Assembly: GCF_004122035.1 (NCBI RefSeq)
Contig: NZ_SAXA01000020.1
Location: 1 to 54,865, forward strand
Reading direction: 5' to 3'
Source: Ancylomarina salipaludis
GTDB lineage: Bacteria > Bacteroidota > Bacteroidia > Bacteroidales > Marinifilaceae
Length of the DNA: 54,865 bases
Shown: piece after piece, positions 20,403-40,713 of the stretch
How the letters are laid out: each line of letters begins with the position of its first letter
How positions within the stretch are numbered: position 1 is the stretch's first letter
Position numbers and translations under genes: made by a program
Notes under the pieces: model-generated
What the model was told of the DNA's origin: nothing
Seen by the model: only the letters and a program-made list of their open reading frames with translations
Database searches by the model: none

Positions 20403-20428
20403 AAATTTGGATTATCGGTTATTATTTG

Positions 20429-20482
20429 GCGCAACTAGTCCTTGCGCTTTATTTAACTTGAGGGGATGTTGGTAGCATCCCC
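20429..20482. other. Two tandem hairpins between fecR and susC-1
   Basis: GCGCAA/TTGCGC (20429-20447) and the 8-bp stem GGGGATGC/CATCCCC type (20462-20482) lie in the 84-bp gap. On the coding (minus) strand neither is followed by a T run, so they are not standard terminators. They may set the fecR:susC expression ratio or protect the susC mRNA end. Confidence 0.55.
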
Positions 20483-20486
20483 TTTT

Positions 20487-21638
20487 TTAGTTCACTGTAA
20501 TCACATTACCTTTTATAACAAAAGAAGCATCACCAGTGCCTTCAATAAGGCTTAATATGGATTCAATTTCGCCATAACGTAAGACATCAACCGAAAAATG
20601 GGCTTCCTTAACTGATGAATTCCCGAAGAATATTTTCACATCATACCAACGAGCCAAATCGTACATGATATCTTCCAAACGGCGGTTATCAAAAATGAAC
20701 CGTCCATTTTTCCATGCAATTACAGACTCAATATTGGCTTGAGACACCTGCATAGAATTATCTGATTTCTGAATATGAACCTGCTTGCCCGGAACCAAAA
20801 TTCTGCCATCCCCCAGGGCATTTTTCACTTCCACACTACCTTCTACAAGAGTGGAAATCACCTGGTTTTCATCGGCATATGAGCGAAGATTAAATTCGGT
20901 ACCCAGAACTTTTAAATTCATTCCCTGACTTTCAACGATAAAAGGTTTAGCCTCATCTTTAGCCACATCAAAATAAAGTTCTCCTTTGGCTATCACTTTA
21001 CGCTGGTTATCGGCAAAAACTGAAGGAAACTCCAAATATGAATCAGCATTTAACCAAACCTTTGTCCCATCAGGCAATTCAACCTGATATTCTCCTCCAA
21101 TAGGGGTAACAATTTTGTTTAAACGGGTCAGCTTATTAGAAAGTAAACTGTCAGAATTAATGGATAGTTTTTCATCATCCTTTCTCACCAGCAAATGATC
21201 TTTGGTGCGAATTAACATAGAGGTATCTACCTTTAAATCGACAACATCACCATTGGCAAAATACAAAATAGCATGACTGCTTCCGGGAACAATAGTTGTT
21301 GTTTCGGTCATCACCTCATCATATTGTGGGTTTTGTGTCAATATAAGAAAACCTATAGCTATGGGTAAAATAAGGATGGCAGCATAGGCGAGCCAATGCT
21401 GAAGCAAATGCTTATTTAAGAGCTGCTTTTCAATTTTAGTCCAAGCTTTGTCAAGATCGCAACCATCATATTCAAAACTCATCTTCAGAATATTCTCCTT
21501 AGTTACAATCTTTTCAAAAAGATTACGATGCAGAGGCGTTTCTAACCATTGGTTTAATTCCTGTTCCTGTTCATCATTTAGTTGTCCATTTAAATAACGA
21601 ACTATCAATTTTGATATCTTATAATTTGGTGTCTGCAT
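20487..21638 (-). CDS. FecR-family anti-sigma factor
   Basis: A protein of 383 residues. A cytoplasmic N-terminal region (about 1-75) would bind the ECF sigma factor. One membrane helix spans about 80-102 (LAYAAILILPIAIGFLIL). The periplasmic FecR domain follows (PGSSHAILYFANGDVVDL; LNKIVTPIGGEYQVELPDGTKVWLNADSYLEFP; FDVAKDEAKPFIVESQGMNLKVLGTEFNLRSY), then a short C-terminal STN-contact region (RRLEDIMYDLARWYDVKIFF...). It holds the sigma factor until the STN domain of the loaded SusC signals. It is upstream of susC in the same direction; the sigma gene is 357 bp further upstream rather than adjacent. Confidence 0.94.
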   Translation of the reverse strand: MQTPNYKISKLIVRYLNGQLNDEQEQELNQWLETPLHRNLFEKIVTKENILKMSFEYDGCDLDKAWTKIEKQLLNKHLLQHWLAYAAILILPIAIGFLILTQNPQYDEVMTETTTIVPGSSHAILYFANGDVVDLKVDTSMLIRTKDHLLVRKDDEKLSINSDSLLSNKLTRLNKIVTPIGGEYQVELPDGTKVWLNADSYLEFPSVFADNQRKVIAKGELYFDVAKDEAKPFIVESQGMNLKVLGTEFNLRSYADENQVISTLVEGSVEVKNALGDGRILVPGKQVHIQKSDNSMQVSQANIESVIAWKNGRFIFDNRRLEDIMYDLARWYDVKIFFGNSSVKEAHFSVDVLRYGEIESILSLIEGTGDASFVIKGNVITVN

Positions 21639-21823
21639 TTTCTCTGAATTTTAACTCTAAGAAACGCTTGCGTTAAAACAGGGTGACAGAATATTTGTAT
21701 TTTTTTAACAATTGTTGACTTTTTTAAAAGAAATTGTACCAAACACCTAGCTTTATAACGCATTCAGTTCACACAGAAACCTGAATAACAACAATTTTTA
21801 TATAAAATGAAAAAAAACTGAAT

Positions 21824-21952
21824 ATGGATTATACTCAAAAATATCAGCAGCATTACCATGAATATGCAAATCTATGGGAAGCTTCGGGATTGCTGTCCCA
21901 TCCCTATATTTACCGGGATCTTAAGAGGAAAGTTAAAGGAAAATATTTTTAG
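21824..21952 (+). CDS. Possible small protein, 42 residues, unrecognised
   Basis: A plus-strand frame opposite to its neighbours lies in the 357-bp gap between the sigma and anti-sigma genes. It starts MDYTQKYQQHYHEY, is rich in Tyr, His, Lys and Gln, and ends DLKRKVKGKYF. Upstream is AT-rich with no clear ribosome site, as is usual in this phylum. It has no motif I know and could be a relic, a real small protein or chance. The rest of the gap (21639-21823 and 21953-21995) shows nothing certain. Confidence 0.3.
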   Translation: MDYTQKYQQHYHEYANLWEASGLLSHPYIYRDLKRKVKGKYF

Positions 21953-21995
21953 TTGTTAAGTACTTAGTACTCCATACTTTTTTTTAGTTAGCGAC

Positions 21996-22550
21996 TTAGT
22001 TCAATAATAAGAATAGAACCCAATGTGCCCCTTTCAAGCGTTCGCGTAGAAATTGGTAGGCTCTTTTTTTAAGAGTCTTAACGGTATTTACAGATACCTC
22101 AAGTTCCGCGGCAATTTCAGGATTCGATAAACCATTCATGCTCATCACTACTATACGACGTGATTGTGGGGACAATTCCTTTATTGCTTCATAAACTTCA
22201 GCATACACCTCTTCTTCAATCACGGCATCATCAAAATACTCATCAGTGGACAAGGACAGAATTTCTGATTGATTTTTGCTTTTCACTTTCTCATGACGAA
22301 GGTGGTTGAGGCAATTGTTGCGTACTGCTGTATAGAGATAACTTTTTATGGCACTAAAATCTGATATTTGTTCACGACTTCGCCATAGACCCAAAAAAGC
22401 TTCCTGCACAAGGTCATCGCTGGTCGCATCTTCGTCGATATATTTTTTAGCAAACCCCCTAAGTGGTCGATAATACTGATCAAACATTTTTTTGAACACC
22501 AATCGGTTACCCTCGCGAAGTTGCATTATCATCAAACGATCATTCTCCAT
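21996..22550 (-). CDS. ECF RNA polymerase sigma factor, FecI-like
   Basis: A protein of 184 residues, the usual length. Region 2 is at about 10-80 (FKKMFDQYYRPLRGFAKKYI; SDDLVQEAFLGLWRSRE; YLYTAVRNNCLNHLRH) and binds the -10 element and core enzyme. Region 4 is at about 120-175 (ELSPQSRRIVVMSMNGLSNPEIAAELEVSVNTVKTLKKRAYQFLRE) with a helix-turn-helix for the -35 element. It should drive SusCD locus 1 when released by FecR. A good promoter abuts the start codon, giving an almost leaderless mRNA. Confidence 0.94.
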   Translation of the reverse strand: MENDRLMIMQLREGNRLVFKKMFDQYYRPLRGFAKKYIDEDATSDDLVQEAFLGLWRSREQISDFSAIKSYLYTAVRNNCLNHLRHEKVKSKNQSEILSLSTDEYFDDAVIEEEVYAEVYEAIKELSPQSRRIVVMSMNGLSNPEIAAELEVSVNTVKTLKKRAYQFLRERLKGAHWVLFLLLN

Positions 22551-22946: not shown

Positions 22947-23972
22947 ATGATGATAAGGATGAGATGGATGTTATTTCTTGCTGTAGTTGTGCTTAGCAGT
23001 TGCAGTAAAGTACCGGAAAGAAATTTTGAATTTAATTATAAAGTGAGCCTGCAAGCCAATTCAGGTAAAAATATGAAGGTTTGGATTCCAATCCCCAAAT
23101 CAAACGAAATTCAAAACATTAGCGAACTAAGTATTGATACCGAAATCCCCTATTCAATTAAAACTGAAGAGAAGCATGGTAATACTTACTTTTATGCCGA
23201 TTTAAAAGAAGGTTTAACCAAAGCAACGGACATTAACATTCATTTTAATGTGAACAGAAAGCAACGAAGTGCTGCTAAATTTAATGGCGTTAATACAAAC
23301 CAATATCTAAATGCAAACCGCTTGGTTCCTGTGGGCGGACGATTCGATTCAATTGTAAAAGCAAACCATTTTTCACCTGAAAACATGAAGGCTGTCTACG
23401 ATTTTGTTTTGAATGAAATGTATTATGGCAAACCTAAAGCTCAAAATCCATCAGATCATTATTATGCCAGCTTACCAGCTACCATCAAAAAAGGCATTAG
23501 CAAGGACAGTGTCGTATCCCTTTATCTGAATACCACAAAAATTGCGGGAGAATTTACTTTTGGAAACGGGAACTCAAATTACGCCTGCGACATATCTGTG
23601 GGTAATTGCACAGACTTCCATTCCTACTTTATGTCTTTGGCTCGTAGCATACAAGTTCCTGCACGTTTTCATATTGGCTTTTCAATTCCTGAAGGGAAAA
23701 AAGGAAATATTGGGGGCTACCACTGTTGGGCTGACTATCACCAAAACAAGACATGGCTTCCTGTAGATATTTCAGAAGCTGACAAAGCACCTGAAAAAGC
23801 CAATTTCTATTTTGGAAATCTGGATGCCAATCGTGTGGAAATGACTCAAGGTCGTGATTTAATTCTTAAAGGCTACACAAAAGGAGCTGTCAACTTTTTT
23901 GTCTACCCCATTGTGGAGTGTGACGGACAAGCTGCTGCATACACAAAATCATTCTCTTTTAAAGAGATCTAA
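22947..23972 (+). CDS. Transglutaminase-like (papain-fold) lipoprotein
   Basis: A protein of 341 residues. A short basic N-terminus and hydrophobic stretch end at a lipobox VLSSC, so it is a membrane-anchored lipoprotein outside the cytoplasm. The first about 125 residues form a beta-rich domain (YKVSLQANSGKNMKVWIPIP), as seen in many bacterial transglutaminase-like proteins. The core triad is visible: Cys221 in VGNCTDFHSYF, His259 in GGYHCWADY and Asp274 in PVDISEADK. Such proteins are usually cysteine proteases or amidases rather than true crosslinkers. It lies between two SusCD loci on the opposite strand, with its own promoter and terminator, so a link to either locus is only positional. 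Confidence 0.88.
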   Translation: MMIRMRWMLFLAVVVLSSCSKVPERNFEFNYKVSLQANSGKNMKVWIPIPKSNEIQNISELSIDTEIPYSIKTEEKHGNTYFYADLKEGLTKATDINIHFNVNRKQRSAAKFNGVNTNQYLNANRLVPVGGRFDSIVKANHFSPENMKAVYDFVLNEMYYGKPKAQNPSDHYYASLPATIKKGISKDSVVSLYLNTTKIAGEFTFGNGNSNYACDISVGNCTDFHSYFMSLARSIQVPARFHIGFSIPEGKKGNIGGYHCWADYHQNKTWLPVDISEADKAPEKANFYFGNLDANRVEMTQGRDLILKGYTKGAVNFFVYPIVECDGQAAAYTKSFSFKEI

Positions 23973-24056: not shown

Positions 24057-24827
24057 TTATTGGTTTAACCATTTTTTAAACTCCGAACATCTATCCTGAC
24101 TAACAATAGCATCCATTGCTTCCTCACAAGTCGGATTAAGATTCAATTTTATTCTCGTCTTTGAATAGTAAGTCATATCTATTATGGAAGGATAACTAAC
24201 GATGAATTTTCTATTGATCCTAAAAAAGATATTGGGATCTAGTTTTTTTTCAAGGTTTGCCAAAGTCCCATCAAACAAATAACGAGTTCCATCCTTACTA
24301 AAAAGATAACAGGCTTTTCCATCAGCCATAAAATATGAAACTTGTTCTAAATCCAGAGATAGAATACGATCGCCACGACTTACCATAAAACGCTCCTGAT
24401 ACTTTTGACCACCAATAATAGATTGCAGAGAATTTTGCAAAGATTCAATATCAACCGACTTTGGCTTAACAAACATATCATCATATTTATTAAGAGCCTG
24501 CTCCAAATCATCTTCATCAATAGGTTTCAATAGGTAATCGATACTACACTGTTTAAAAGCCTGAATAGCATACTGATCGTAGGCCGTTGTGAATATCACA
24601 GGCGTTTTCAGTTCCAATTGTTCGAATATAGAAAAGCTGTTGCCATCACCTAAATGAACATCCATAAAGATAAGATCAACCTCATTCTCAGAAAACCAAG
24701 CCACAGCCTGACTCACATTCTCAAGCTTAACCTTGATGTCTATTCCATCTGGCCGCAAGCTCAATAGGCTATTTCCCAACTCACGAGCTGCAAGATGCTC
24801 ATCCTCTACTATCGCAACACTAATCAT
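24057..24827 (-). CDS. LytTR-family response regulator
   Basis: The start is at 24827 (MISVAIVEDEHLAAREL); a longer open frame would run backwards into susD-2 and has no family match. The length is 256 residues. The receiver domain (1-125) has the acidic pair at Glu8-Asp9, phospho-acceptor Asp56 in DLIFMDVHLGDG, Thr80/81 and Lys101 in LLKPID. The LytTR DNA-binding domain (about 150-256; DRILSLDLEQVSYFMADGKACYLF, NIFFRINRKFIVSYPSI) binds direct repeats of DNA. The matching LytS-type kinase is at 32745-34673, on the far side of the SusCD-protease block. It lies downstream of susD-2 but behind a terminator, so it probably has its own promoter in 24828-24924. Confidence 0.93.
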   Translation of the reverse strand: MISVAIVEDEHLAARELGNSLLSLRPDGIDIKVKLENVSQAVAWFSENEVDLIFMDVHLGDGNSFSIFEQLELKTPVIFTTAYDQYAIQAFKQCSIDYLLKPIDEDDLEQALNKYDDMFVKPKSVDIESLQNSLQSIIGGQKYQERFMVSRGDRILSLDLEQVSYFMADGKACYLFSKDGTRYLFDGTLANLEKKLDPNIFFRINRKFIVSYPSIIDMTYYSKTRIKLNLNPTCEEAMDAIVSQDRCSEFKKWLNQ

Positions 24828-24859
24828 ACCTCGAATATTTAGTCTACAAATGTAAAAAG

Positions 24860-24892
24860 AAATGGGGCAGTCTTTATCAGAAAGCCCCATTT
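24860..24892 (-). terminator. Intrinsic terminator after susD-2
   Basis: Stem AAATGGGGC/GCCCCATTT (24860-24868 with 24884-24892) with a 15-nt loop that can itself pair (CTTT/AAAG). A TTTCTTTTT run follows on the minus strand. It separates susD-2 from the response-regulator gene. Confidence 0.8.
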
Positions 24893-24924
24893 TTGATTCA
24901 GATAATTTTATTAACCTCTTACAA

Positions 24925-26265
24925 TTAATTTGCCAAGTTAGGATTATTATTAATCGCTTCCTGAGGATAAGGCAATGTATAACGAGGATCACCTTGTTGC
25001 AACACAACTGTTTCATCACCAAAAACATGAATAATCTCAGGCTGCGTTGTTCTTCTTAAGTCAAACCAACGATGACCTTCAAAAGCAAACTCACGGAAAC
25101 GCTCAGTTAGAATTTCCTTAATCAATTCTGCTCTATTCATACCAGCAATACGTGCAACTTCTGTAGAGTAGAAATCAGGTTTTAGTCTTTTTACTTTCAG
25201 CTGATTCAAATAATCACGAGCATCGTCAAGTTTATCCAGTTGAGCAGAAGCTTCAGCTGCAATCAAATACAATTCAGCTGTACGGAAAGTACAACGAAAT
25301 TTATCATCACCACCTTTAGAAACAACATAAGATCCTGATCCATTATCAGAATAATATTTTGCAAAACGCAAATCATTATCTATATCGTAAACGCCCATCA
25401 ATTCGTCAGAAACAAATACTGAATTTACAACTGCAGCATGAATACCTTCCTCTAAAGCCATGATACTTTCCTTAGAATTGTATTCACTAGGAATCAAACT
25501 CTCTGAATTGTTTAAATCTTCCAAGTCTGATTTTATGGCTAAAGTTGTTTTAGCAGAAGCTAAAGCGTTCTCCCATTCGTTTTTATACAAAGCAACTCTT
25601 GCTTGTAGAGCATTTGCAGAAGTCTTAGTAAAACGGTAGTTTTTACCCAATTCATATTCTTCAACATTCAATAGAGCCAAACCTTTAGTTAAATCTGATT
25701 CTACAAGTCCATATACTTCTGCAACTGTTGAAGGTACATAATTGGCTTCCAAATCAATTACTGTTGATACTGGTACTCCTTTATCAGTAGCAGATGAATT
25801 TAAATCGTAATGAGAAGCATATTGATTTACTAAATTAAAGTGCATCAGAGCGCGCATTAAATAAGCTTCACCTTGTAATTGCTCAACTTCCTCTTTCGTC
25901 CCGTCTGTAATTTCAGAACCTTCAGCAATAATATGGTTGGCATAAAAGATCGCTTTATAAAAACTTTGCCATCCAAAAGATAAAGTTGATGGAGCTGGTG
26001 TTTCATCTTCCCATAAATAAATATCCTTATAAGAAGCGATATCATTTTCCCATGCCCATCTGTAGAATTTCACTTCATCGGTACGCATGGTTAGTTTTGA
26101 ATTCTCAGCAGGAACTAAATAATAAGCTCTGGTCATTAAAGCTCTAAATTCCTCCATCGTTTCTGGTATTACTGTATCTGCAGGCTTTACATCCAGATAT
26201 TCGTCACATGATGGTAACACCAATAGGGCTAGCATTATGCTGATATATACTTTTATATTTTTCAT
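24925..26265 (-). CDS. SusD/RagB-family outer-membrane lipoprotein (locus 2)
   Basis: A protein of 446 residues. The signal peptide MKNIKVYISIMLALLVLPSC ends in the lipobox (Cys20). The N-terminal SusD signature is DEYLDVKPADTVIPETMEEFRALM, central TPR-like helices include LQGEAYLMRALMHFNLVNQYASHY, and the RagB/SusD C-terminal motif is RAELIKEILTERFREFAFEGHRWFDLRRT. It acts at the cell surface as the lid of the SusC encoded 10 bp upstream. The neighbouring metalloprotease suggests peptides as ligand, as for RagAB of Porphyromonas gingivalis; this is inference from context. Confidence 0.94.
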   Translation of the reverse strand: MKNIKVYISIMLALLVLPSCDEYLDVKPADTVIPETMEEFRALMTRAYYLVPAENSKLTMRTDEVKFYRWAWENDIASYKDIYLWEDETPAPSTLSFGWQSFYKAIFYANHIIAEGSEITDGTKEEVEQLQGEAYLMRALMHFNLVNQYASHYDLNSSATDKGVPVSTVIDLEANYVPSTVAEVYGLVESDLTKGLALLNVEEYELGKNYRFTKTSANALQARVALYKNEWENALASAKTTLAIKSDLEDLNNSESLIPSEYNSKESIMALEEGIHAAVVNSVFVSDELMGVYDIDNDLRFAKYYSDNGSGSYVVSKGGDDKFRCTFRTAELYLIAAEASAQLDKLDDARDYLNQLKVKRLKPDFYSTEVARIAGMNRAELIKEILTERFREFAFEGHRWFDLRRTTQPEIIHVFGDETVVLQQGDPRYTLPYPQEAINNNPNLAN

Positions 26266-26275
26266 ATTTCCAGTT

Positions 26276-29200
26276 TTAGAAAGTCACATTTACACCTATA
26301 GTGAATGATTTAGCTTGTGGTTGTGAATAAATATTTCCATATGATTCAGGATCAAAATAACCGTCGTATCCATTCGAAATTACAAAAGGATTACGTGCCT
26401 CAAAACTAAATCGAACACTATTCAATTTTAATTGATCAGCTAATTGCTGAGATAAAGTATAACCCAAACGGATACTACTTATTCTCATATAATTCACTTC
26501 TTTTAACCAAATATCCAAAGCCTGATATGTATTTACAGGATCTGAAACTGCATGCCAGTTCTTCTCCATCCAATAACTTCCATCACCGGATGTACTACCC
26601 ATCAAATTAGGGTATTTCGTATTTCTTCCTTCAATTACGTCTAAAATATCAACGGGTGCATTTCGACCTCTATCGTAATCTGTAATATCATATGGAGGAC
26701 GCGCCATACGCATCATCTTCAAATTAAAATTAGCAGATACAGTTAAATCAAAGTTTTTGTATTTGAAATTATTAATGATACCTCCCGAATATTTAGGGTC
26801 AGCATCACCTGCATATGAGAATAGGTTTCTGGTTTCTTCGGAAGTTAAAGATGAAGCGGACACATTTCCTGGCCACCACTCGGCATAAGCATCATACAAC
26901 TTGAAGAATTCCTGTCCGTTAAGCTTATTACCATCTTTCAAATAAATTGGGTAACCATTCTCATCTAATCCTGCTGTTTTAATAACAAAAACAGAATTTA
27001 CAGGATGCCCTTCTAAAGAAGGTGTACCTTGATTATCACGCACCTGAACTTTATTTACTTTACTTTTATTATGAGAGATATTGAAATTGGTATTCCACTC
27101 AAAATTATCCGTTTGAATATTTCTTGTTGCAATACTAAACTCCCAACCTTTGTTCGAAACCTCTGCCCAATTCACATTAGTAAATTCGAATCCATTCTCC
27201 ATTGGAATAGATTTCATACCAATCAAATCTGAGCTATTCCTGTCATACACATCAAGACTAATACGAACAGCATGACGAAAAAGAGCTAAGTCTAAACCTG
27301 CATTGTAGGTTCTTGTTTTTTCCCAACGTAATTTATCATTAGGAGGAGATAAAACCTCAATACCTTGCTCGCTAAAACCTGGAAGGATTGAATTCTGCTT
27401 GTATTTCCCAACAACAACAGGATAAGTCTCCTTATCAATGTTTCCTTGCAAACCATATGATGCACGTAATTTCAAATTACTCAACCAATTGACATTTCTA
27501 AGAAAATCTTCTTCAGAAGCGGTCCATGAACCACTCAATGCCCAAAGAGGTGTGTACTTATATTTTGAAGCTGTACCAAATAAATTAGAACCATCGTAAC
27601 GAACACTACCAAATACCGTATACTTTCTGTTGTAGGTATAAGATGCTGTTCCAAAAAATGATGCATATCTATTTTTAATATAGGATTTTGAATCCTTATT
27701 AAATTCTTTTGCATCAGATTCATTAGGATAGATCACAGCAGTTCCATTCAAACCATTAGGATTCCAACCATAGATACTTGAATGAACAAGAGTGCTTTCA
27801 GTTTCTCTCAATTCATTACCAACCATAGCGTCGAACTCATGAACATCATTAAAAACTTTATTCCATTCAAGCATATTCTTCCAGTTGTAAGAACGATTCT
27901 CTCCATTCCAACTTCTTAACACCCCGCCTTCAGGCATAAAAGGTAAACGCTCTTTAGCTACTGGATCCCAACGACGAGACCTCTCTCTTATCTGTCTTGA
28001 ATAATAGGTATTTTCTTTGGCTTCTTTTGTTGTCTGAGTGTTATCTGACTGGATACCTAGTTGTGATCTCAAAGTTAAATCAGCAGTAATTTCCCAATCC
28101 AGGTCAAAATTCACATTCAGCTTACGGCTCTTCATTTTATGAGAAGTTCCTTCACGCTCTTCGATAATATTAAAAGGTACATAAGCGTCATCAGATTCCT
28201 GAATTTCACCATCATACACATATCGACCTTTCTCATCATATACCTTTTGATAAGGATTGACAGTACGAGTATAATAAGATGGGTTTGTAAAGAAATCAGT
28301 TCCTGTTAAATACGAATTCTTTTCGACTTCTGATCCAAATACACCAACGCCAAATTTTAAATTACGTCTTAATTGGAAATCTGTTTTTAAAGTCACATTA
28401 TATCGATCCATAGAAGTTCCGATAGTCGTTCCTTTTTCGTTATAGTATCCACCTGAAAAATAGTAAGTCGCAAAATCGTCTCCACCAGAAATACTCAAAG
28501 AGTGATCTTGATTAACAGAGGTTTGGTACAATAAATCTTCCCAATTTGTATTGGTATTTCTCAAACTATTAATTTCAGTCTGAGCATCATTACTAATTCC
28601 GGAAAAGCCATTTGTTCTGTAAGCATCCAATTGGTCATATTTATTTAAAATACGAGCAACACCACCTTTACCTGATCTGTAAGTCAAATCTTCACGTCCA
28701 GCCAAGGCTAACTCTAAATCAACTTTCTGATCTGAGTTCATCAAATTTAGTTTGCTTAAATCAGGACGAGAAGTAAATGAAGTATTACTATTAAAGCTTA
28801 CTCTCATTTTACCTTGTTTACCGTTTTTTGTGGTAATTACAATTACTCCATTAGCAGCACGCGCACCATAAATAGCTGTTGCAGCCGCATCCTTAAGAAT
28901 AGTTATATCCTTAATATCCTGAGGATTCAAGCCAGCAATTGAAGAATTGTATAACTGGTCAATATTATCAGAATCATTAAAATCAGGGAGATCATTACCT
29001 TCCAAAGGCACACCGTCAACAACCCATAGAGGATCTTGGGTTCCATTTAATGACGCGGTACCACGAATACGAATTTTAGCAGGTGCGCCAGGCGCTCCAC
29101 TTGTTGGCATAGAAGTCACACCAGCCAACTGACCAGCAAGCATATTATCAACACTTGCAATACCTGCCTGCATAATCTTATCAGCACCGACTTTAGCTAC

Positions 29201-29605
29201 TGCTGAGGTTAATTTGCGTTTTTCAATTTTCTGATATCCTGTCACAACAATCTCACCTAACTGACTATTAGAATTGTTAAGCTTAATTGTCACAAAATCT
29301 TTTCCAGCAATATCAACCACTTGAGTTTCGAAACCCAGAAAGCTACACGAAATAGTTTTCAATGCTTTAGGTACTTCAAGTATAAAATTACCGTCCAAAT
29401 CGGTAATCGTTCCCATTGTGATATTCTCTATCACTCCTTTTACTCCCGTTTCAGCTCCAATTGTCGATTTGTCTATAAACACAGAAGCACCGATCAGCAC
29501 ATCGCCGTCGGTTGCTGAGAGTACTCTCCCCTTAATTTGCTTCGTCTCTTGTGCCAATACGATGGCTGGTAAACAGATCAAAAGCCAGGTTAGCAGTCTT
29601 TTCAT
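26276..29605 (-). CDS. SusC/RagA-family TonB-dependent transporter (locus 2)
   Basis: A protein of 1109 residues. The signal peptide MKRLLTWLLICLPAIVLAQ is followed by a CarboxypepD_reg domain (about 22-110, IKGRVLSATDGDVLIGASV), the TonB-box region LGEIVVTGYQKI, the plug (LKDAAATAIYGARAANGVIVITTKNG) and the barrel, ending FTIGVNVTF. It lacks the STN domain of the locus 1 paralogue, which fits regulation by a two-component system rather than by sigma/anti-sigma. Within the CarboxypepD_reg domain there is an insertion (TIGAETGVKGVIENITMG) between the usual strands. Co-transcribed with susD-2. Ligand likely peptide by context. Confidence 0.95.
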   Translation of the reverse strand: MKRLLTWLLICLPAIVLAQETKQIKGRVLSATDGDVLIGASVFIDKSTIGAETGVKGVIENITMGTITDLDGNFILEVPKALKTISCSFLGFETQVVDIAGKDFVTIKLNNSNSQLGEIVVTGYQKIEKRKLTSAVAKVGADKIMQAGIASVDNMLAGQLAGVTSMPTSGAPGAPAKIRIRGTASLNGTQDPLWVVDGVPLEGNDLPDFNDSDNIDQLYNSSIAGLNPQDIKDITILKDAAATAIYGARAANGVIVITTKNGKQGKMRVSFNSNTSFTSRPDLSKLNLMNSDQKVDLELALAGREDLTYRSGKGGVARILNKYDQLDAYRTNGFSGISNDAQTEINSLRNTNTNWEDLLYQTSVNQDHSLSISGGDDFATYYFSGGYYNEKGTTIGTSMDRYNVTLKTDFQLRRNLKFGVGVFGSEVEKNSYLTGTDFFTNPSYYTRTVNPYQKVYDEKGRYVYDGEIQESDDAYVPFNIIEEREGTSHKMKSRKLNVNFDLDWEITADLTLRSQLGIQSDNTQTTKEAKENTYYSRQIRERSRRWDPVAKERLPFMPEGGVLRSWNGENRSYNWKNMLEWNKVFNDVHEFDAMVGNELRETESTLVHSSIYGWNPNGLNGTAVIYPNESDAKEFNKDSKSYIKNRYASFFGTASYTYNRKYTVFGSVRYDGSNLFGTASKYKYTPLWALSGSWTASEEDFLRNVNWLSNLKLRASYGLQGNIDKETYPVVVGKYKQNSILPGFSEQGIEVLSPPNDKLRWEKTRTYNAGLDLALFRHAVRISLDVYDRNSSDLIGMKSIPMENGFEFTNVNWAEVSNKGWEFSIATRNIQTDNFEWNTNFNISHNKSKVNKVQVRDNQGTPSLEGHPVNSVFVIKTAGLDENGYPIYLKDGNKLNGQEFFKLYDAYAEWWPGNVSASSLTSEETRNLFSYAGDADPKYSGGIINNFKYKNFDLTVSANFNLKMMRMARPPYDITDYDRGRNAPVDILDVIEGRNTKYPNLMGSTSGDGSYWMEKNWHAVSDPVNTYQALDIWLKEVNYMRISSIRLGYTLSQQLADQLKLNSVRFSFEARNPFVISNGYDGYFDPESYGNIYSQPQAKSFTIGVNVTF

Positions 29606-29650
29606 AGTTCAATTTTTAAAGGTTATTAAAATAGTGGTTTTTGTAAGTAA

Positions 29651-29686
29651 AAAAACAGATAGGGTAGATTTCTTTACCCCATCTGT
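29651..29686 (-). terminator. Intrinsic terminator after the metalloprotease gene
   Basis: A 12-bp stem (29655-29666 with 29675-29686, one G-T pair) and an 8-nt loop are followed on the minus strand by seven T. It lies between the metalloprotease stop and susC-2, so read-through would be partial at best, or susC-2 has its own promoter in the remaining 45 bp. Confidence 0.85.
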
Positions 29687-29700
29687 CAAACAGATTTTTA

Positions 29701-32391
29701 TTATTTCATATTGAGTGCTTCTTCAATTCTCAAAACTAAATCAGTATAGTGATAACGAGTCGCTTGATCATTTATCGTCAAACGTTTCTTCAATAAGGAT
29801 CGAATCTTCATCAACTCACCTCTTTTCATTGAAACCGCATCCGAAACACGATTCATCGTGGCATATACCAGATTACGATTAAAATTTCTGGAATCACCGC
29901 CATCGGCCTTTTCATCTTCAAACATGCCAACTGATCTCACCGAATAGTCACACAAAACAGGCATGTGATGGTGCAAAGAACAGGAACAATCAGAGTGCAA
30001 TGCTTTTTTAGTTGTTTTCTCCATAGCCTTATTCTGGGTAATGATTAAGGCATCGATGTAATTTTTTTGACTTTGACGATCGTAAACATTCAGCTTATAG
30101 CCCTTGATTGTTTTCTTAAAAATCCCCTGATGCAAATCGTCCAGCATATTTGCAACCGTGTAAGCTTTATTACCATTTACAGCTTCGTTTTCAAGCATTC
30201 TAAGCAACCTTTCTTTCTGTAAAAGCGAATAAAATATTCGAGCATGCAAGTCGCGAAATAGAGTCGTTGGTGCATATTCAATATCTCCAATTGGCGATTC
30301 TTTAATAGGGTATGTTTTATTGTAAACATCAGCTTTTGTCAACCAAGCAGGAATATCAATTACTTCATCAATTAAATACTTAATGGCATCCTTTTGTTTA
30401 GCTTTCTCTACATGAGCATAAGCTGCTTTTTGCTCACCATATACCGGATGATCAAGATAAACTCCTCCAATATTGGTAACCACATGATTGGCATAGGTAA
30501 ACCACTGTCCAATGATTCCCATCATCATCTTACCGGCTTTCTCATAATCCTGACCTTCTTCGTAAGTCCAGTTTTCAACCTGTGGCACAATACGTTTCAA
30601 ATTCTTCAATCCATAACGGCTTGCTTGCATCGAATTATCCCCCAAATCTTCACTTTGTGCCGACGGATCAATCGTATTCTTACCATCCTGCTGCGGACCA
30701 TAATGGTATAATGGATCCGTTTCATGTTTACGAATCATAGCCGATTGATCATTCAACTCATCCCATGGCGTGTTTTTATTATTCCATTTGTAAGCCCATC
30801 CTATTGCGAAAATATCGTACACTCCAATTTGCGGGGTAATATTTTCAACACCATCTTCTGGTTGTGCCACATAATTGAATCGCGCATAATCCATGATGGA
30901 AGGAGCGGTTCCTCCCATTCTATCGGTATAGGTTTTCGATCGCAAAGAATCAACAGGATAAGCGTACGAAGCTCCCATATTGTGCATCAAACCCAAGGTA
31001 TGGCCCACTTCATGAGAAGACACAAAACGAATGGCATGTGCCATGTGCTCATTCTCGAATTTATTGGCTCTTGCCTTTGGATCAATCGCACCGGTTTGAA
31101 TTCTTATCCACGATTGCAAAGCCGTCATCACATTGTGCCACCAAATAATATCAGCTTCAATAATTTCTCCTGAACGTGGATCAACAACTGAAGGTCCCAT
31201 TGCATTTGCCTGACTCGAAGCGGCATAAGTCACCATAGAATAACGCACATCGTCGCCATCAAAATCAGGATCGTTAATTGGTGCATCTTTAGCAATAATA
31301 GCATTTTTAAAACCTGCTTGTTCAAAAGCAATCTGCCAATCGTTTATCCCATCTTTGATAGTCTGTCTCCATTGTTTAGGCGTTGATGGATCGATATAAT
31401 AAACGATTTGCTTTTGTGGCTCAACCAATTCACCTGCTAAATATCTCTCAACATCTTCCTTTTTAGGCTCTAAACGCCAACGATTTACCAATTCGCGATT
31501 CTCCAGGGCTTGCTGATCATCGTTAAAATAAAAATGCTTTGTAGAGAAGAACCCCACTCTTCTGTCTGCAAAACGGGGTTTCATTGGTTTTTCGTTCAAT
31601 AAAACGATGTTTGATGTGACTTCGATTGAAACCGTAATTCCTTCGGCCTTTGTTGTCAATAACGATTTAACAATGGCATTTTCAGGAAAAGACTTTACTT
31701 CATCAATCTTCGAAAGCGTACTAACTGCCGAACCTGGCATCCCCAGAATTCCAAAAAGATCATTCAAACTTTTTTCGGAACCATCAAAAACCTTATTCAC
31801 CTTAAAGACATAAGAGGTTGAATCTTTTCCCAAACAAGATAAATCAAAGCTCTCTCTGATAGATGAAATATAATTATCTTCGAATGACTTCGTAATTGCA
31901 TCACCTTTTTTACTTGAGTAGGCAGCCTTATATGTTTTTACCCATACTTTTTTAAGAATCGTATCCAATTCAAACTTGATTAATAAGTTTTGATAGTTGA
32001 TTCCTTTATTAAATCCCAACTCATTAATTTCAGTGGGTACTTTAGATATTTTATTCACCAATAAAAAATCACGCCCCAATAGACTTTTATCCAATTCAAA
32101 AAAATAATCTTTCTTTACCCGATGGATATCGATAACACCCTTCTGACTTACTGCATCAGAAGTAATAACGTCGTCGTATTTCTTGAGAGTTGATTTTTTC
32201 TCATCAGTCACCTTTGCATCCTCTTTGTCGGCTTTTTTATTTTTTTTCTTGAAAAATTTAAAAACCCCGGTTTCAGATTGTTCCTGGTTTAAAATAGCAG
32301 CCTGCGTTTGCTCCTGTATCCCACCAAGAATACAAGTTGTCATTATAGCTACGGCTAATGTCTTTTTAAGTGTGTGTGTGTTTAAGCTCAT
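29701..32391 (-). CDS. Secreted zinc metalloprotease, metzincin type (DUF5117/DUF5118 family)
   Basis: A protein of 896 residues. An N-terminal signal peptide (KKTLAVAIMTTCILGGIQEQTQA) is followed by a Lys-rich linker (about 44-70), which is unusual. A DUF5118/5117-like beta-rich region (VKKDYFFELDKSLLGRDFLLVNKISKVP) leads to the catalytic core. The zinc motif HEVGHTLGLMH (His460, Glu461, His464, His470) is the metzincin HExxHxxGxxH form, and SIMDY about 35 residues on supplies the Met-turn. A helical C-terminal part follows. It should cleave proteins in the periplasm or outside. It lies just upstream of susC-2/susD-2 in the same direction, separated by a terminator. The sensor kinase upstream probably controls the set. 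Confidence 0.92.
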   Translation of the reverse strand: MSLNTHTLKKTLAVAIMTTCILGGIQEQTQAAILNQEQSETGVFKFFKKKNKKADKEDAKVTDEKKSTLKKYDDVITSDAVSQKGVIDIHRVKKDYFFELDKSLLGRDFLLVNKISKVPTEINELGFNKGINYQNLLIKFELDTILKKVWVKTYKAAYSSKKGDAITKSFEDNYISSIRESFDLSCLGKDSTSYVFKVNKVFDGSEKSLNDLFGILGMPGSAVSTLSKIDEVKSFPENAIVKSLLTTKAEGITVSIEVTSNIVLLNEKPMKPRFADRRVGFFSTKHFYFNDDQQALENRELVNRWRLEPKKEDVERYLAGELVEPQKQIVYYIDPSTPKQWRQTIKDGINDWQIAFEQAGFKNAIIAKDAPINDPDFDGDDVRYSMVTYAASSQANAMGPSVVDPRSGEIIEADIIWWHNVMTALQSWIRIQTGAIDPKARANKFENEHMAHAIRFVSSHEVGHTLGLMHNMGASYAYPVDSLRSKTYTDRMGGTAPSIMDYARFNYVAQPEDGVENITPQIGVYDIFAIGWAYKWNNKNTPWDELNDQSAMIRKHETDPLYHYGPQQDGKNTIDPSAQSEDLGDNSMQASRYGLKNLKRIVPQVENWTYEEGQDYEKAGKMMMGIIGQWFTYANHVVTNIGGVYLDHPVYGEQKAAYAHVEKAKQKDAIKYLIDEVIDIPAWLTKADVYNKTYPIKESPIGDIEYAPTTLFRDLHARIFYSLLQKERLLRMLENEAVNGNKAYTVANMLDDLHQGIFKKTIKGYKLNVYDRQSQKNYIDALIITQNKAMEKTTKKALHSDCSCSLHHHMPVLCDYSVRSVGMFEDEKADGGDSRNFNRNLVYATMNRVSDAVSMKRGELMKIRSLLKKRLTINDQATRYHYTDLVLRIEEALNMK

Positions 32392-32744
32392 TCAGTGTGT
32401 TTGTTCTTTTTGCAAAGGCTGACACAAAAGATAATTGTATAAACAAATATCTTTTGCGTATAACATGCCCGTGCAGGATCTAACCGTTTACTAACCAAAA
32501 TTTATTTTAGATCCATTTGAAGAGGATCTGAAACAAAAATCTATTTTTTGTAATTAGCAATAAAAAGGAAGGGTGTGAATCAGGAAAATTGAAGAGTGAA
32601 TCGTAAAAAAAAGAGAATGAACAAAAATGCAAGCCTCAAACAGACTCGCATAACGATCCCAATTCAAACATTTTTAGAATGATGAAATGCTCAATTCATA
32701 TGAACTTTTAAACAGACAATTTGCACTAAAATACGGGGCAAGAT
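32392..32744. promoter_or_regulatory. Control region between the sensor kinase and metalloprotease genes
   Basis: This 353-bp gap must hold the metalloprotease promoter. On the minus strand GGTTAG recurs at an 11-bp step (minus-strand reading of about 32480-32496), the arrangement typical of LytTR-protein sites (direct repeats one helical turn apart). GGATCT occurs at 32476 and 32524, and with AGATCC at 32509-32514 forms a dyad (AGATCC-N9-GGATCT, 32509-32529). No exact TAnnTTTG box is seen on the minus strand. Assigning these to the response regulator at 24057 is inference. Confidence 0.35.
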
Positions 32745-34673
32745 TTATGAGATAAGAGGTAGTCGAACAACAAACAGATTTCCCTCTACACCATATTTAG
32801 GCTGCTCTTTACCTAAAAAGGTATATAAAGCATTAAGTGTTTTGAGGCCTGTGCCCGAACTCGACCCAACATCTGAACGCAATTGGTAGGTATTGGCAAC
32901 AACCAATTCGTCATTCTCAATTCGTATTGTAATCAGAAGCGGTTTTTCTGAAGTTACAATATTGTGCTTTATGGCATTCTCCACAAGTGACTGCAAACTG
33001 ACCGATGGCAACTTGGAACTCATATAACAATCAGAAATGTCACAGTCTAAACTCAAATTTTCACCAAACCGAATTTTCTGAAGGAAAATATAATGCTTCA
33101 TAAAATCCAGCTCCTGTTTTAAATCGATCAGACTTGAATTGTTTTGATCCAAAAGATAACGGTAAACTTTTGACAATTTCAAAACAAACTTGCGAGCTAA
33201 TCCTGGCTCAGCTTCTACCAAAGCATATAACGAATTAAGTGAGTTAAACAGAAAATGAGGATTAATCTGATTTTTGATATTCTTCAACTGAGCCTTTACC
33301 TTCTCCTCTTCTTCTTGATTTGCACGCTTTCTCAACTCAACTGTTTCGCTAATATCAAATCGAAAACTTGAGAACCCAATTACAATATTATCTTCATCAA
33401 AAATAGCATTGAATATTTGCTGATAATGCTGCTGATTTCTCTCATATTCAATCAAAAAATGTTCGCCTTGAATCGCTCTCTCAAAAGATTTCCGCATTAA
33501 CTCACGCACATCTGTCTTATAAACTCCTAAAGCATTATCCCCAAGCTCGATACAAACCCCTTCCTTTTCAAGAATATCTTTTTGATATACCGAATTAAAA
33601 CTCGTATAATGAAAATCCCGATCAACTGAAAAAATCATAATTTGATCCGTACTCTCCATAATTGAAGACAACTTATTCTCAACAGCCCGATGTTTTGTTT
33701 CCGCCTTTTGTCTTCTATCATATTCAGAAAGCCATTTACGCTGTGAAAAGTACAAGAACACCATCAATAAAAATGCCAGGGCAATACCAATTAAGGCCGT
33801 GGAATTTCGAACTTCCTGCACAGCCTCTTCAACATTAAATAAAGGCACACTTACTGAAATCAACCAATTGGCATTGATTTCACCCAATTGTATCGATTGA
33901 TACACACGAACAACAGGAACTTGAAGAAAATCAGAAACAACCTCAGCCTGATACTTTTCACCCGAGATAAGCACCTTCTTCACATTGTTACTATCACTCA
34001 TACTATTTATTCCAGCTCCAATTCTTTTTTCATCGGGATGAATAATACAATAGCCTTCAGAAGATATGATTGATACATAAGCCCGCCCTAAAGATTGCTC
34101 ATCGTAAAAGTGTTGTTGAAAATTAAATAAGTCGATATCAAGCCCCAAGGCTCCCACAAGATTCCCTTTTATTTTAACAGGCATAACAATAGAAACCAAG
34201 AAACGACTATCCTGAGATAAGTAAGGAGGAGAAACAAACTCCTCTCCCTTTAACTGCAAATTCTTAAATAATGCTTTTCGACTTGCATCAATTTCTTTTT
34301 TTCCAACGCCTTCTTCAATATGAGTAAAAAACAATCCCTCTTCCGATTTTTCAAGATCAATAAACCAACACGAATAAAAATCATTTTTTCCAATCAATAC
34401 ACCTTCCAATTGTTCACTTATCGTAGGTAATTGAATGCCATTCACCTTAATAATTTCCTCAAGAGTCTTTCCAAGCTCAATTGAAAACTGGTAATTATCC
34501 TTCAATTTATTTTTAACGATCAAAAAACTGTTCTGAGCTTTTGACACAGCCAAATCAACACTCATATTACGAGCAGTTTGTGACATTTTTTCGCCTATTA
34601 AATAAGCAACGATCACAAAAGTTACAATAATAACAATACCGACCTGTACGATGGATTTATTACGCCGTTTCAT
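32745..34673 (-). CDS. LytS-type membrane sensor histidine kinase with Cache and PAS domains
   Basis: A protein of 642 residues. Membrane helix 1 is at about 9-26 (VGIVIIVTFVIVAYLIG). A periplasmic Cache-type sensor covers about 30-285 (FVSPPYLSQDSRFLVSIVMPV; LVGALGLDIDL; SEGYCIIHPD). Membrane helix 2 is at about 293-311. A cytoplasmic PAS domain (about 335-445) precedes the His_kinase domain with phospho-acceptor His473 in NQINPHFLFNSLNSL and a C-terminal HATPase (SLVENAIKHNI; GSSSGTGLKTLN). This architecture pairs with LytTR regulators; the one at 24057-24827 is the obvious partner. Cache domains often bind small molecules such as amino acids, which would suit a peptide-use locus. A -7 box lies upstream. 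Confidence 0.93.
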   Translation of the reverse strand: MKRRNKSIVQVGIVIIVTFVIVAYLIGEKMSQTARNMSVDLAVSKAQNSFLIVKNKLKDNYQFSIELGKTLEEIIKVNGIQLPTISEQLEGVLIGKNDFYSCWFIDLEKSEEGLFFTHIEEGVGKKEIDASRKALFKNLQLKGEEFVSPPYLSQDSRFLVSIVMPVKIKGNLVGALGLDIDLFNFQQHFYDEQSLGRAYVSIISSEGYCIIHPDEKRIGAGINSMSDSNNVKKVLISGEKYQAEVVSDFLQVPVVRVYQSIQLGEINANWLISVSVPLFNVEEAVQEVRNSTALIGIALAFLLMVFLYFSQRKWLSEYDRRQKAETKHRAVENKLSSIMESTDQIMIFSVDRDFHYTSFNSVYQKDILEKEGVCIELGDNALGVYKTDVRELMRKSFERAIQGEHFLIEYERNQQHYQQIFNAIFDEDNIVIGFSSFRFDISETVELRKRANQEEEEKVKAQLKNIKNQINPHFLFNSLNSLYALVEAEPGLARKFVLKLSKVYRYLLDQNNSSLIDLKQELDFMKHYIFLQKIRFGENLSLDCDISDCYMSSKLPSVSLQSLVENAIKHNIVTSEKPLLITIRIENDELVVANTYQLRSDVGSSSGTGLKTLNALYTFLGKEQPKYGVEGNLFVVRLPLIS

Positions 34674-34817: not shown

Positions 34818-35651
34818 ATGATAGATTTTATAATTGACGAGAATAAATGCATTACTTGCGGACTGTGTGCTCAGGATTGTCCCGTTGGAATTATTAATAT
34901 GAACCCCAAACCCGGCATCCGCAAATCGAGAGAGAAGCTATGCCTTAAATGTCAACACTGTTTGGCTATTTGTCCTACTGCTGCAATATCAATTCTTGGG
35001 AAAAAGCCTGAAAATAGTTTACCTGCAGATGGTGAACGCCCCACATATGAAGGAATGACTCGTTTGATTAAAACCCGTCGGTCAATCAGAAAATACCTGC
35101 ACGAGGATTTGGATCAAAATCTTATTCAAGAACTTCTGGAAACAACGGCATACGCTCCAACAGGTCACAACTACAACTCGGTACACTTTACCCTTATCGA
35201 TAATAAAGAAGACTTAGACTTGTTTCGGGATAAAATTTATGCAGCCATAAAAAAAGCGGGTGAAGCAAAAACTCTCCTGCCACAATTCGAATTTCTGTAC
35301 GCCATTCAAAAAGTCTGGGAAAACAATCAGGTTGATGTTATCTTCAGAGATGCACCCCATCTTCTGATCGCTTCAGCACCAAAGAAAAATTCATCACCTC
35401 TACCCGATTGTCTGATTGCTCTCTCCTATTTTGAACTTCTGGCAAACAGCCATGATATCGGAACCTTATGGAATGGGATGTTGACATGGGTATTAAACGA
35501 TATCGATCCGGACATAGCCGAACAAATCGGCATTCCTAAGGATTACACGGTTGGGTACGGAATGGTTTTTGGGAAATCTGCAGTTAAATACCCTCGGGCC
35601 ATTCAATCGGAAGGCTTGAGTCTAAATCGAGTCAATCTGACAAAAAAGTAA
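34818..35651 (+). CDS. Nitroreductase fused to an N-terminal ferredoxin domain
   Basis: A protein of 277 residues. The first about 62 residues are a 2x[4Fe-4S] ferredoxin domain with two clusters of four cysteines (CITCGLCAQDCP and CLKCQHCLAICP). The rest is a flavin (FMN) nitroreductase fold beginning MTRLIKTRRSIRKY and APTGHNYNSVHF. In this fused family electrons pass from ferredoxin-type clusters to FMN; the physiological acceptor is unknown. Cytoplasmic, and typical of anaerobes. It is followed 77 bp later by kdsA on the same strand, which has its own -7 box, so co-transcription is possible but not required. Confidence 0.92.
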   Translation: MIDFIIDENKCITCGLCAQDCPVGIINMNPKPGIRKSREKLCLKCQHCLAICPTAAISILGKKPENSLPADGERPTYEGMTRLIKTRRSIRKYLHEDLDQNLIQELLETTAYAPTGHNYNSVHFTLIDNKEDLDLFRDKIYAAIKKAGEAKTLLPQFEFLYAIQKVWENNQVDVIFRDAPHLLIASAPKKNSSPLPDCLIALSYFELLANSHDIGTLWNGMLTWVLNDIDPDIAEQIGIPKDYTVGYGMVFGKSAVKYPRAIQSEGLSLNRVNLTKK

Positions 35652-36709: not shown

Positions 36710-38500
36710 CTAATAAGGCTGACGTTTCACATAAGAGGTATGCAAAAGCTCATGCGATTTGTGACTCAGGGGTTTCCCTAAAAATTCCTCATAGATCTGA
36801 GTAATTTCAGGATTTTCATGAGATTTTCTAAGTGTCAGCGATAAATCTTCTGAATATATTGCATCCATACGCTTCTGGCGGATTTCATTATCTACCGGGA
36901 AGGGTTGACCACCTCCTCCAAGACATCCACCGGGGCATGCCATAATTTCAATAAAATGATAATAACGATCTCCCCTTTCGATAGCTTCCATCAGCTGATG
37001 TGCATTTTCCAAACCATTCGTAATAGCACACTTCAGTTCTACCCCTTCAAGGAAATTCCATTCAGGACGAACATTTTCAATCAATACAACGGCTTCTTTC
37101 ACACCAGCTAAACCCCGAACCGGTTTAATTTCTAAATTATTGAAAGGCACTTCACGACCAGTAACAATTTCATAAGCTGTCCGTAAAGCGGCTTCCATCA
37201 CACCACCTGTCGCTCCAAAAATAACCCCCGCACCAGAACCAATTCCCATAATGGAATCATAATTCTCCTCATTCAACTGATCGAATTCAATACCCGCCTG
37301 TTTAATCATAACGGCCAACTCCCGGGTGGTCAGTACAAAATCAACATCTTTAAAACCGCTATCCTTCATTTCAGGTCGGTTTGCCTCATATTTTTTAGCT
37401 GTACAAGGCATAATCGAAACCGACACAATATTTGCAGGATTCACATCAATATTCTTCGCGTAATAGGTTTTAGCCAATGCTCCAAACATTTGCTGTGGTG
37501 ATTTACATGTGGATAAATTTGGTAGATACTGCGGGTATTTGTGCTCAATATATTTCACCCAACCTGGCGAACAGGAAGTTGCCATTGGCAATGCAACATC
37601 AGGATTATCATCAAACAAAGCTGCTTTTAAACGCATTAAAAGTTCAGTGCCCTCTTCCATAATGGTCAGATCTGCCGTAAAATCGGTATCCAATACCGAA
37701 TCAAATCCTAAACGACGTAGGGCGGCAACCATTCTTGAAGTCACTCGTGTTCCGGCTTCAAAACCAAGTTCTTCACCCAAACCAACCCGCACGGCTGGAG
37801 CTGTTTGTACCACAACATGCTTCTCAGGATCTGCAATAGCATCCCAAACTTGCTCCACATACGACTTTTCTACTAAAGCTCCGGTAGGGCAATGCACAAT
37901 ACACTGTCCGCAATTGGTGCAAACCACTTCGTTAAGAGGCTGATTAAAAAAAGTGGAAATCTTCATCTCAGCACCCTTATGCGCCACAGCAATGGCACCA
38001 ACACTCTGAATTTCAGCACAGGTTCGCACGCATCGCTGACAACGAATGCATTTACTGTCATCCTTTTCAATAGATGGTGAGTATGAATCAATACTGTAAT
38101 TCTTATCAGGAACCAAATCAATAAAATCCGGATTGGTTATCTGAAGATCAGCCGCAATAGATTGCAATTCACAATGCCCGTTTCGGTAACACTTGGTACA
38201 TTCCTCGTTGTGTTCGGCTAATAAAAGCTCAATAATATGCTTACGGCAATTTCTCACCTTCAAGCTATTGGTATTAATCTCCATCCCCTCGCTAACGGGT
38301 GTAGCACATGAAGCCACCAGTCGGTCAACGCCTGCCTGTTCTACCACACAGACTCTGCAATTTCCGGCTATACACAAGTCTTTGTGATAACAGAGAGTGG
38401 GTATATTTATATGTAATTTTTGAGCTGCTTCGAGTATGGTTTTTCCCTCTTCTACACTAACAGCTATTCCATTAATTGATAAATTGATCGTGTTTGACAT
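36710..38500 (-). CDS. hndD: NAD-linked [FeFe]-hydrogenase catalytic subunit (HndD/HydA type)
   Basis: A protein of 596 residues, the length of HndD. Domains in order: [2Fe-2S] (CYHKDLCIAGNCRVC), His-Cys [4Fe-4S] (HNEECTKCYRNGHC), two ferredoxin-type [4Fe-4S] (CIRCQRCVRTC; CTNCGQCIVHCP), the H-cluster domain with L1 TSCSPGW, L2 MPCTAKKYE and L3 EIMACPGGCLGGGGQP, and the C-terminal small-subunit-like tail (RKSHENPEI...HELLHTSY). It makes or oxidises H2 in the cytoplasm. Note Ser in L1 where Clostridium CpI has the second Cys of TSCCP. Third gene of the unit with the NuoE- and NuoF-like subunits. No maturase genes (hydE, F, G) are in the window. Confidence 0.94.
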   Translation of the reverse strand: MSNTINLSINGIAVSVEEGKTILEAAQKLHINIPTLCYHKDLCIAGNCRVCVVEQAGVDRLVASCATPVSEGMEINTNSLKVRNCRKHIIELLLAEHNEECTKCYRNGHCELQSIAADLQITNPDFIDLVPDKNYSIDSYSPSIEKDDSKCIRCQRCVRTCAEIQSVGAIAVAHKGAEMKISTFFNQPLNEVVCTNCGQCIVHCPTGALVEKSYVEQVWDAIADPEKHVVVQTAPAVRVGLGEELGFEAGTRVTSRMVAALRRLGFDSVLDTDFTADLTIMEEGTELLMRLKAALFDDNPDVALPMATSCSPGWVKYIEHKYPQYLPNLSTCKSPQQMFGALAKTYYAKNIDVNPANIVSVSIMPCTAKKYEANRPEMKDSGFKDVDFVLTTRELAVMIKQAGIEFDQLNEENYDSIMGIGSGAGVIFGATGGVMEAALRTAYEIVTGREVPFNNLEIKPVRGLAGVKEAVVLIENVRPEWNFLEGVELKCAITNGLENAHQLMEAIERGDRYYHFIEIMACPGGCLGGGGQPFPVDNEIRQKRMDAIYSEDLSLTLRKSHENPEITQIYEEFLGKPLSHKSHELLHTSYVKRQPY

Positions 38501-38583
38501 TTTTATTCTCTTTAGACATGAGGTTATCTGTATGACTAGACTTCCTCAAAAAATTGAACATCAGATTCTAAAATCAAAATCCA

Positions 38584-39771: not shown

Positions 39772-39807
39772 AAAACTCAGATTTTAAGCGTTAAAAAATT
39801 ATTGATA

Positions 39808-40284: not shown

Positions 40285-40713
40285 AGTTTGATTTTTTGTT
40301 AAAACAAATAAACTAAACACGATACACATTTTAAGTCTGGCTCCATATATCAAGCTCAGATTAAACAAACAGTATCGAGTTAAGGTTCGTTCATTTTCTT
40401 ATTATTGTGAGATAGATTAGTTTTTATGCTAATTATTCTGGTACAATTTCAAATTCAAACTTTAATGAGTGCGGCTAAATCAACTCATATTCAACAAGCT
40501 TCTTATCCAATTATGGCCTTTAATATACTAATTTAATAGAGAAATATTTCTTCATTTTACAAATTCAACTCCAACTTACAGAAACCATAACATCTGAATA
40601 TCAACACTAAGGCTTAAAATACTGATATTCCATCATGATTTTAATTGAAGTATTTATTCAATTATATACATTAATTTATATTTAATCTTCTTAAGCACAA
40701 CAGAATTTTGAGA
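40285..40713. other. Intergenic DNA upstream of the hydrogenase unit
   Basis: About 430 bp of AT-rich DNA between the butyrate kinase terminator and the hydrogenase start. It must contain the hydrogenase promoter, but I found no exact TAnnTTTG box on the minus strand and no convincing dyad. No gene is seen. Confidence 0.4.

Follow-up and report, generated by a model that had tools for sequence, protein, structure and literature searches.

A LytS/LytTR pair and a conserved tandem octamer as the candidate switch of a metzincin-SusCD operon in Bacteroidota

In the DNA of Ancylomarina salipaludis analysed here (the window, 54,865 nucleotides in all) five genes follow one another on the minus strand in the order dCache-fold LytS kinase, metzincin, STN-less SusC, SusD and LytTR regulator (Table 1). 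Regulation of this operon by LytS/LytTR is strongly supported by comparative evidence from sequence, and we consider it likely that kinase and regulator form a dedicated, self-amplifying two-component activator of one operon that imports and cuts peptide- or protein-like cargo. To our knowledge, the triggers that turn on peptide- or protein-type SusCD importers are mostly undefined. The tandem octamers upstream of the metzincin and the fixed spacing to a promoter-like box are new here for a LytS/LytTR-SusCD-protease cassette, and a literature search at the level of titles and abstract openings found no report of the five-gene cassette. Regulator, site and operon are open to a joint test in a non-pathogenic laboratory Flavobacterium, with a prediction at single-base level.

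Results

Composition of the cassette

The original prediction of five genes in one-strand order, with a SusC devoid of STN domain and a Cache-type LytS, was borne out by the domain matches. The kinase is formed by a hydrophobic stretch, about 264 extracytoplasmic residues, a second hydrophobic stretch and the His_kinase domain, with its histidine in a PHFLFN motif found in 65/65 kinases of complete cassettes; together with a regulator made of a receiver and a LytTR domain (PF04397) it constitutes a LytS/LytTR pair. Structure matches and an AlphaFold model assign a dCache fold to the sensor region; the Pfam dCache_1 match (38.3 bits) stays below the curated cut-off of 45, and for this reason we call it dCache-fold. 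A peptide or amino acid, as originally proposed, would be one candidate among the diverse ligands known for dCache domains; the alignment of the sensor profile with amino-acid receptors (PctA, the CtaA set and Mlp37) spans only about 70-80 residues.

The metzincin matches PF16313 with 371.3 bits (cut-off 24.2), and both HExxHxxGxxH and the Met-turn are present in 65/65 metzincins of complete cassettes. Its signal peptide and the absence of a lipobox, judged by eye, suggest that the protein is probably periplasmic; a loose lipobox pattern matched by 11/65 metzincins counts against this placement. The SusC scores 702 bits against TIGR04056 (cut-off 368.25) and lies adjacent to a SusD_RagB protein, as in SusCD/RagAB importers. 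The cassette is flanked by two plus-strand genes, a transglutaminase-like one (22947-23972) and a ferredoxin-nitroreductase one (34818-35651), and scans of the window for Rfam families (gathering threshold) and tRNAs gave no match. On the transglutaminase side, 16866-22550 holds a second SusCD locus with a sigma factor, a FecR-like protein (FecI/FecR-SusCD) and a SusC whose N-terminal extension looks STN-type by eye. On the other side, 36710-40368 encodes an iron-only hydrogenase large subunit with NuoF-like and, by eye, NuoE-like neighbours, perhaps an electron-bifurcating hydrogenase.

Table 1. Cassette features with their positions in the window
Feature	Position	Strand	Remarks
LytS-type histidine kinase, PF06580	32745..34673	-	Pfam match; hydrophobic stretches at residues 8-26 and 291-309
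Kinase sensor region, residues 27-290	33804..34595	-	AlphaFold pLDDT 89.8, dCache fold; block-wise differences among some relatives
PAS-like linker of kinase, about residues 330-450	33324..33686	-	present in 6/18 aligned kinases; no Pfam match
Distal (third) octamer TTCATTCT	32614..32621	-	candidate LytTR-type site
Middle octamer TTCACTCT	32593..32600	-	21 bp from each neighbouring octamer
Proximal octamer TTCACACC	32572..32579	-	candidate LytTR-type site
-7-like promoter box GATTTTTG	32534..32541	-	38 bp from start of proximal octamer
Metzincin zinc protease, DUF5118-DUF5117-DUF4953	29701..32391	-	Pfam match; signal peptide, no lipobox by eye
SusC/RagA TonB-linked importer, TIGR04056	26276..29605	-	CarbopepD_reg_2 and Plug; no STN match
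SusD/RagB lid lipoprotein	24925..26265	-	SusD_RagB 77.2 bits, cut-off 23.1
Response regulator with LytTR DNA-binding domain	24057..24827 (probable extent)	-	domain match
Block covering SusD and the greater part of the SusC barrel	about 24800..28800	-	differs from sister genome G002; 200-bp steps, edges approximate

Conservation of the five-gene order

A search of Bacteroidota for this order, called for by the original prediction, recovered it on one strand in 65/80 loci found with the metzincin, many of which belong to close relatives, so that the counts are not independent. Complete cassettes occur in Marinifilaceae, Flavobacteriaceae and Weeksellaceae (Marinifilum, Labilibaculum, Ancylomarina, Flavobacterium, Myroides, Chryseobacterium, Arenibacter, Sinomicrobium and a few other genera), and the order is also present in 12 further same-family loci with a distinct metzincin. 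The 15 incomplete loci comprise 12 from Chitinophagaceae and one from Sphingobacteriaceae without orthologs of the pair, the short contig L060, and L083, in which the kinase is kept and no LytTR match was found in the locus. Five Chitinophaga loci (L046, L048, L049, L050 and L052) have upstream LytS/LytTR genes that are distant (kinase 47-58 bits, LytTR 48-53 bits) and were not counted as the cassette pair; octamers are lacking in these loci. In L049 the distant pair, with a kinase of TPR type, and the metzincin are 387 bp apart. When 40 metzincins of our choice were placed in a tree, one clade with support 99/97 held all 26 rows with the pair, together with two rows whose kinase lies elsewhere and the short-contig rows L060 and L131.

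The metzincin was detected at E 1e-250 or better in 15/295 genomes of an order sample. Among its nine new loci, eight have no LytS/LytTR pair and the ninth (G541) carries LytTR-kinase upstream; metzincin and SusCD stay together in 7/8 pair-less loci, SusCD being absent nearby in that of G508. Two relatives (G015 and G021) keep LytTR in the block and have the kinase ortholog elsewhere in the genome; the relocated kinase of G015 (L112, 4626-10952) is flanked by a CarbopepD_reg_2 protein and a 979-aa protein that has no Pfam match. The metzincin contig of G054 has 454 bp of sequence ahead of the metzincin, and this genome of 1180 contigs yielded no full-length kinase. A kinase and regulator kept by relatives without the block, named beforehand as the finding that would refute control of the block, was encountered among the genomes examined in G046 only; there a site copy scoring 14/16 persists between kinase and regulator, so that G046 looks to have lost the metzincin-SusCD block. 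At first look, two genomes of the same family (G025 and G043) have 56 and 48 candidate metzincin paralogs, a possible large expansion.

A tandem octamer at fixed distance from a promoter-like box

Alignment of the kinase-metzincin gap from 12 Marinifilaceae-type loci revealed strongly conserved direct repeats that recur every 21 bp, with a promoter-like box after them. The consensus, YTCACTCC-N13-YTCACTCC, has a 13-nt spacer; almost all LytTR regulators recognise two repeats of 9-11 nt separated by 11-13 nt, according to a passage of PMC4847170, and the octamers agree with a spacer of 11-13 nt near the target promoter in geometry only. The tandem octamer is also found upstream of the metzincin in Flavobacteriaceae, in Weeksellaceae and in the other genera of the window's own family, and a candidate site is present in 65/65 complete cassettes, 64 of them inside the 300 bp scanned and L104 at -307. 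Incomplete loci (n=15) score at most 10/16 in 14 cases, the kinase-keeping L083 scoring 15. A pair of at least 13/16 occurs in 81/98 distinct metzincin upstream regions; the 17 regions below 13 are 14 loci without kinase ortholog, whose scores are at shuffle level, the short contigs L060 and L131, and L104, whose site falls outside the scan. Shuffled sequences reached at least 13 in 6/4900 cases and 14 never. The window's own pairs are degenerate (14/16 and 13/16) and are missed by the exact pattern. G541 (L182), arranged as LytTR-kinase-metzincin-SusC-SusD, has no pair of at least 13, with two octamer-like copies 42 bp apart. In some Flavobacterium loci such as L061 (site at -97, gap of 86 bp) the kinase gene runs with its final codons into the first octamer, and conservation there could therefore be partly coding.

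A TAnnTTTG-like box, which we take to be the Bacteroidota promoter consensus, matches at least 6/8 at exactly 38 bp after the proximal octamer in 79 of the 81 upstream regions with a pair of at least 13 (8 positions scored, the two N always counted); in the other two, L068 and L099, the box matches in full at 39 bp. The mean box score is 6.95 at offset 38 and at most 5.11 at other offsets between 28 and 49, and the spacing from candidate site to box is alike across two bacterial orders. Two regions had been put forward as targets of the regulator. The first, 32392-32744, is where the conserved tandem site and the box were found; the second, 29606-29654, contains no tandem octamer, the best pair in 29606-29700 scoring 9/16. 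No further site was found between metzincin and SusC, between SusD and LytTR or ahead of the kinase, where the best pairs reach 9, 7 and 7 of 16, respectively.

Distribution of the site across the phylum

In a phylum sample of 395 genomes, the full-length kinase (called at >400 bits) was found in 13, and 15 carry the metzincin (E 1e-250 or better), namely the same 13 plus G114 and G464. The kinase is directly upstream of the metzincin in 12/13 kinase genomes; in G316 the two are on opposite strands, about 8 kb apart. We found the exact site in 29/395 genomes, that is in 12/13 kinase genomes versus 17/382 others. The 12 have one exact site each, directly upstream of the metzincin, and belong to families f64 and f65, which are of the window's class but of another order; the thirteenth, the window's own genome, has relaxed copies only. 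Among the 17 non-kinase genomes with the site, 12 have matches that look by eye like CTCACTCC-rich tracts and five have isolated matches, G308 with three identical copies. Four genomes with isolated matches were examined: in G300 and G413 the site lies at Fasciclin-LytS-LytTR gene sets, and in G304 and G452 no kinase or LytTR match was found within 12 kb. These Fasciclin sets, from genomes of the same class (L175, 4884-8303; L178, 5654-8515), have the tandem octamer upstream.

The relaxed pattern gave four matches in the own genome and its reversed control none; two of the four overlap in the cassette. Another, outside the cassette, falls inside a UspA-like ORF (by eye), and the last adjoins another kinase-like/response-regulator pair. 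On the own contig C1 (L142, 3346-8400) this pair, with the relaxed tandem octamer at its start, accompanies a LanC-like gene and small ORFs, possibly a modified-peptide cluster.

The occurrence of the motif at the other LytS/LytTR sets of G300 and G413, and its relaxed copy beside another pair in the own genome, would be expected if the pair were a general regulator with many targets and its neighbourhood reflected operon convenience or joint transfer. However, a single exact site per genome, upstream of the metzincin, in 12/12 kinase genomes having any, and the shuffle-level scores where kinase orthologs are absent, make this reading highly improbable. The motif at other LytS/LytTR and kinase-like pairs suggests that the octamer may be common to several Bacteroidota LytTR proteins.

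Exchange of importer and sensor blocks

Compared with its sister genome G002, the window is conserved in kinase (94%), metzincin (95%) and LytTR (95%) and divergent in SusC (66%) and SusD (55%); DNA identity is 81-96% in neighbouring cassette parts versus 50-72% between about 28800 and 25000. The comparison with A. euxinus (L115) gives the reversed pattern, with SusC 97% and SusD 94% identical versus kinase 75%, metzincin 87% and LytTR 89%, and DNA identity of 86-98% in the block versus mostly 73-85% outside. Similar importer-block cases are L040 versus L035, L038, L039 and L041, then L123/L124, L128/L136 and, less cleanly, L055/L057. The L038/L039 cassettes differ mainly in the kinase sensor (42-43% identity versus 96% in the core); L084 lies outside the sensor comparison, its kinase ORF being a 252-aa piece. 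Over 3003 pairs, metzincin identity correlates at 0.94 with LytTR and 0.87 with SusD. The block comparisons indicate that changes in importer and in sensor occur independently of the rest of the circuit, which stays fixed, and from the sharp block edges we infer that the blocks may have been exchanged by recombination.

A sensor that differs as a block, as in the Marinifilum kinase, could also mean signalling instead of feeding, with the kinase sensing a strain-specific peptide which SusCD and metzincin take up and clear; the partners of LytTR proteins in Gram-positive bacteria are often pheromone systems. We regard this as very unlikely, since sensor and importer changes are uncoupled (within the cassette, L038/L039 differ in sensor only and L040/L041 in importer only), the ligands named for the dCache matches are small molecules, and no small peptide gene was noticed in the cassette.

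Discussion

We propose that the extracytoplasmic dCache-fold domain of the kinase would bind a small ligand and that phosphorylated LytTR may then bind two to three YTCACTCC octamers spaced by 21 bp, as their conservation and geometry suggest, at a constant distance of 38 bp from the -7-like box that precedes the metzincin, thereby turning on metzincin-SusC-SusD-LytTR. The regulator gene is the last of the likely operon, and so the switch would amplify its own output; the kinase gene, being upstream of the site, is probably transcribed apart from the operon. SusCD would bring peptide- or protein-like cargo into the periplasm, where the metzincin, by homology and signal peptide, may cut it. The proposed LytS/LytTR control of protease and importer is supported by the kept gene order and the conserved candidate site. 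In its favour we also count the split cassette of G316, where the metzincin stands alone with a site and LytTR-kinase-SusC-SusD lies on the other strand with a second one (15/16) at the kinase end, before SusC; the kinase outside the block yet in the genome in G015 and G021; and the motif before the Fasciclin-LytS-LytTR sets.

For the import and cutting step alone, the switch could be real and the cargo a glycan or other non-peptide, the metzincin acting on something else. SusCD systems mostly import glycans, the next SusC match after ButC is 8aa4, a 'SusC homolog' (250 bits, above RagA with 222), and sugar-binder SusD structures match as well. Against this, no CAZyme was found among the five cassette genes, which sets the cassette apart from a polysaccharide utilisation locus; the structure title of ButCD, by far the best solved relative, names a complex with a protein; and metzincin and SusCD occur together without the kinase, as in the pair-less order-sample loci. 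A non-peptide cargo therefore appears unlikely, and homology to ButCD and RagAB indicates peptide or protein.

As a tentative and rather doubtful extension of the proposed switch, the importer may be a regulated gate, in which SusC barrel and SusD, and the kinase sensor, would have recombined independently under pressure from antibacterial proteins or phages entering via ButCD-like importers, with promoter, protease, kinase core and regulator fixed. If so, the switch would limit how often the gate is open. The differences in importer and sensor blocks provide natural pairs of alleles with which possible drivers (toxins, phages, substrate) can be compared.

Comparison with known systems

The closest solved chains to the cassette SusC and SusD are ButC and ButD (PDB 8YPT and 8YPU). 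The title of 8YPT is 'Cryo-EM structure of BfUbb-ButCD complex', BfUbb being, we assume, the ubiquitin-like antibacterial protein; this closeness ties a widespread operon to an importer solved with an antibacterial protein. A relative still closer to ButC (L183, 1337 bits) has metzincin-SusC-SusD and no kinase, LytTR or site within 20 kb. RagAB of Porphyromonas gingivalis, whose structure is titled 'RagAB peptide transporter', is likewise of SusCD type and has known allelic variants such as ragB-1, but is a weaker match to the cassette SusC. In Flavobacterium psychrophilum, oligopeptide import has been inferred for the SusCD pair THC0290_2100/2101, according to a passage of PMC9723704. SusCD loci under ECF sigma/anti-sigma or hybrid two-component control share with the cassette a local regulator beside SusCD, whereas the cassette has LytS/LytTR, no CAZyme and a SusC without STN. 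A regulatory parallel, YpdA/YpdB-yhjX of E. coli, also combines a LytS/LytTR pair, one transporter gene and tandem repeats, yhjX being described within PMC4847170 as the only direct target; however, yhjX is a putative major-facilitator transporter, whereas the cassette contains an outer-membrane importer operon with protease and regulator inside.
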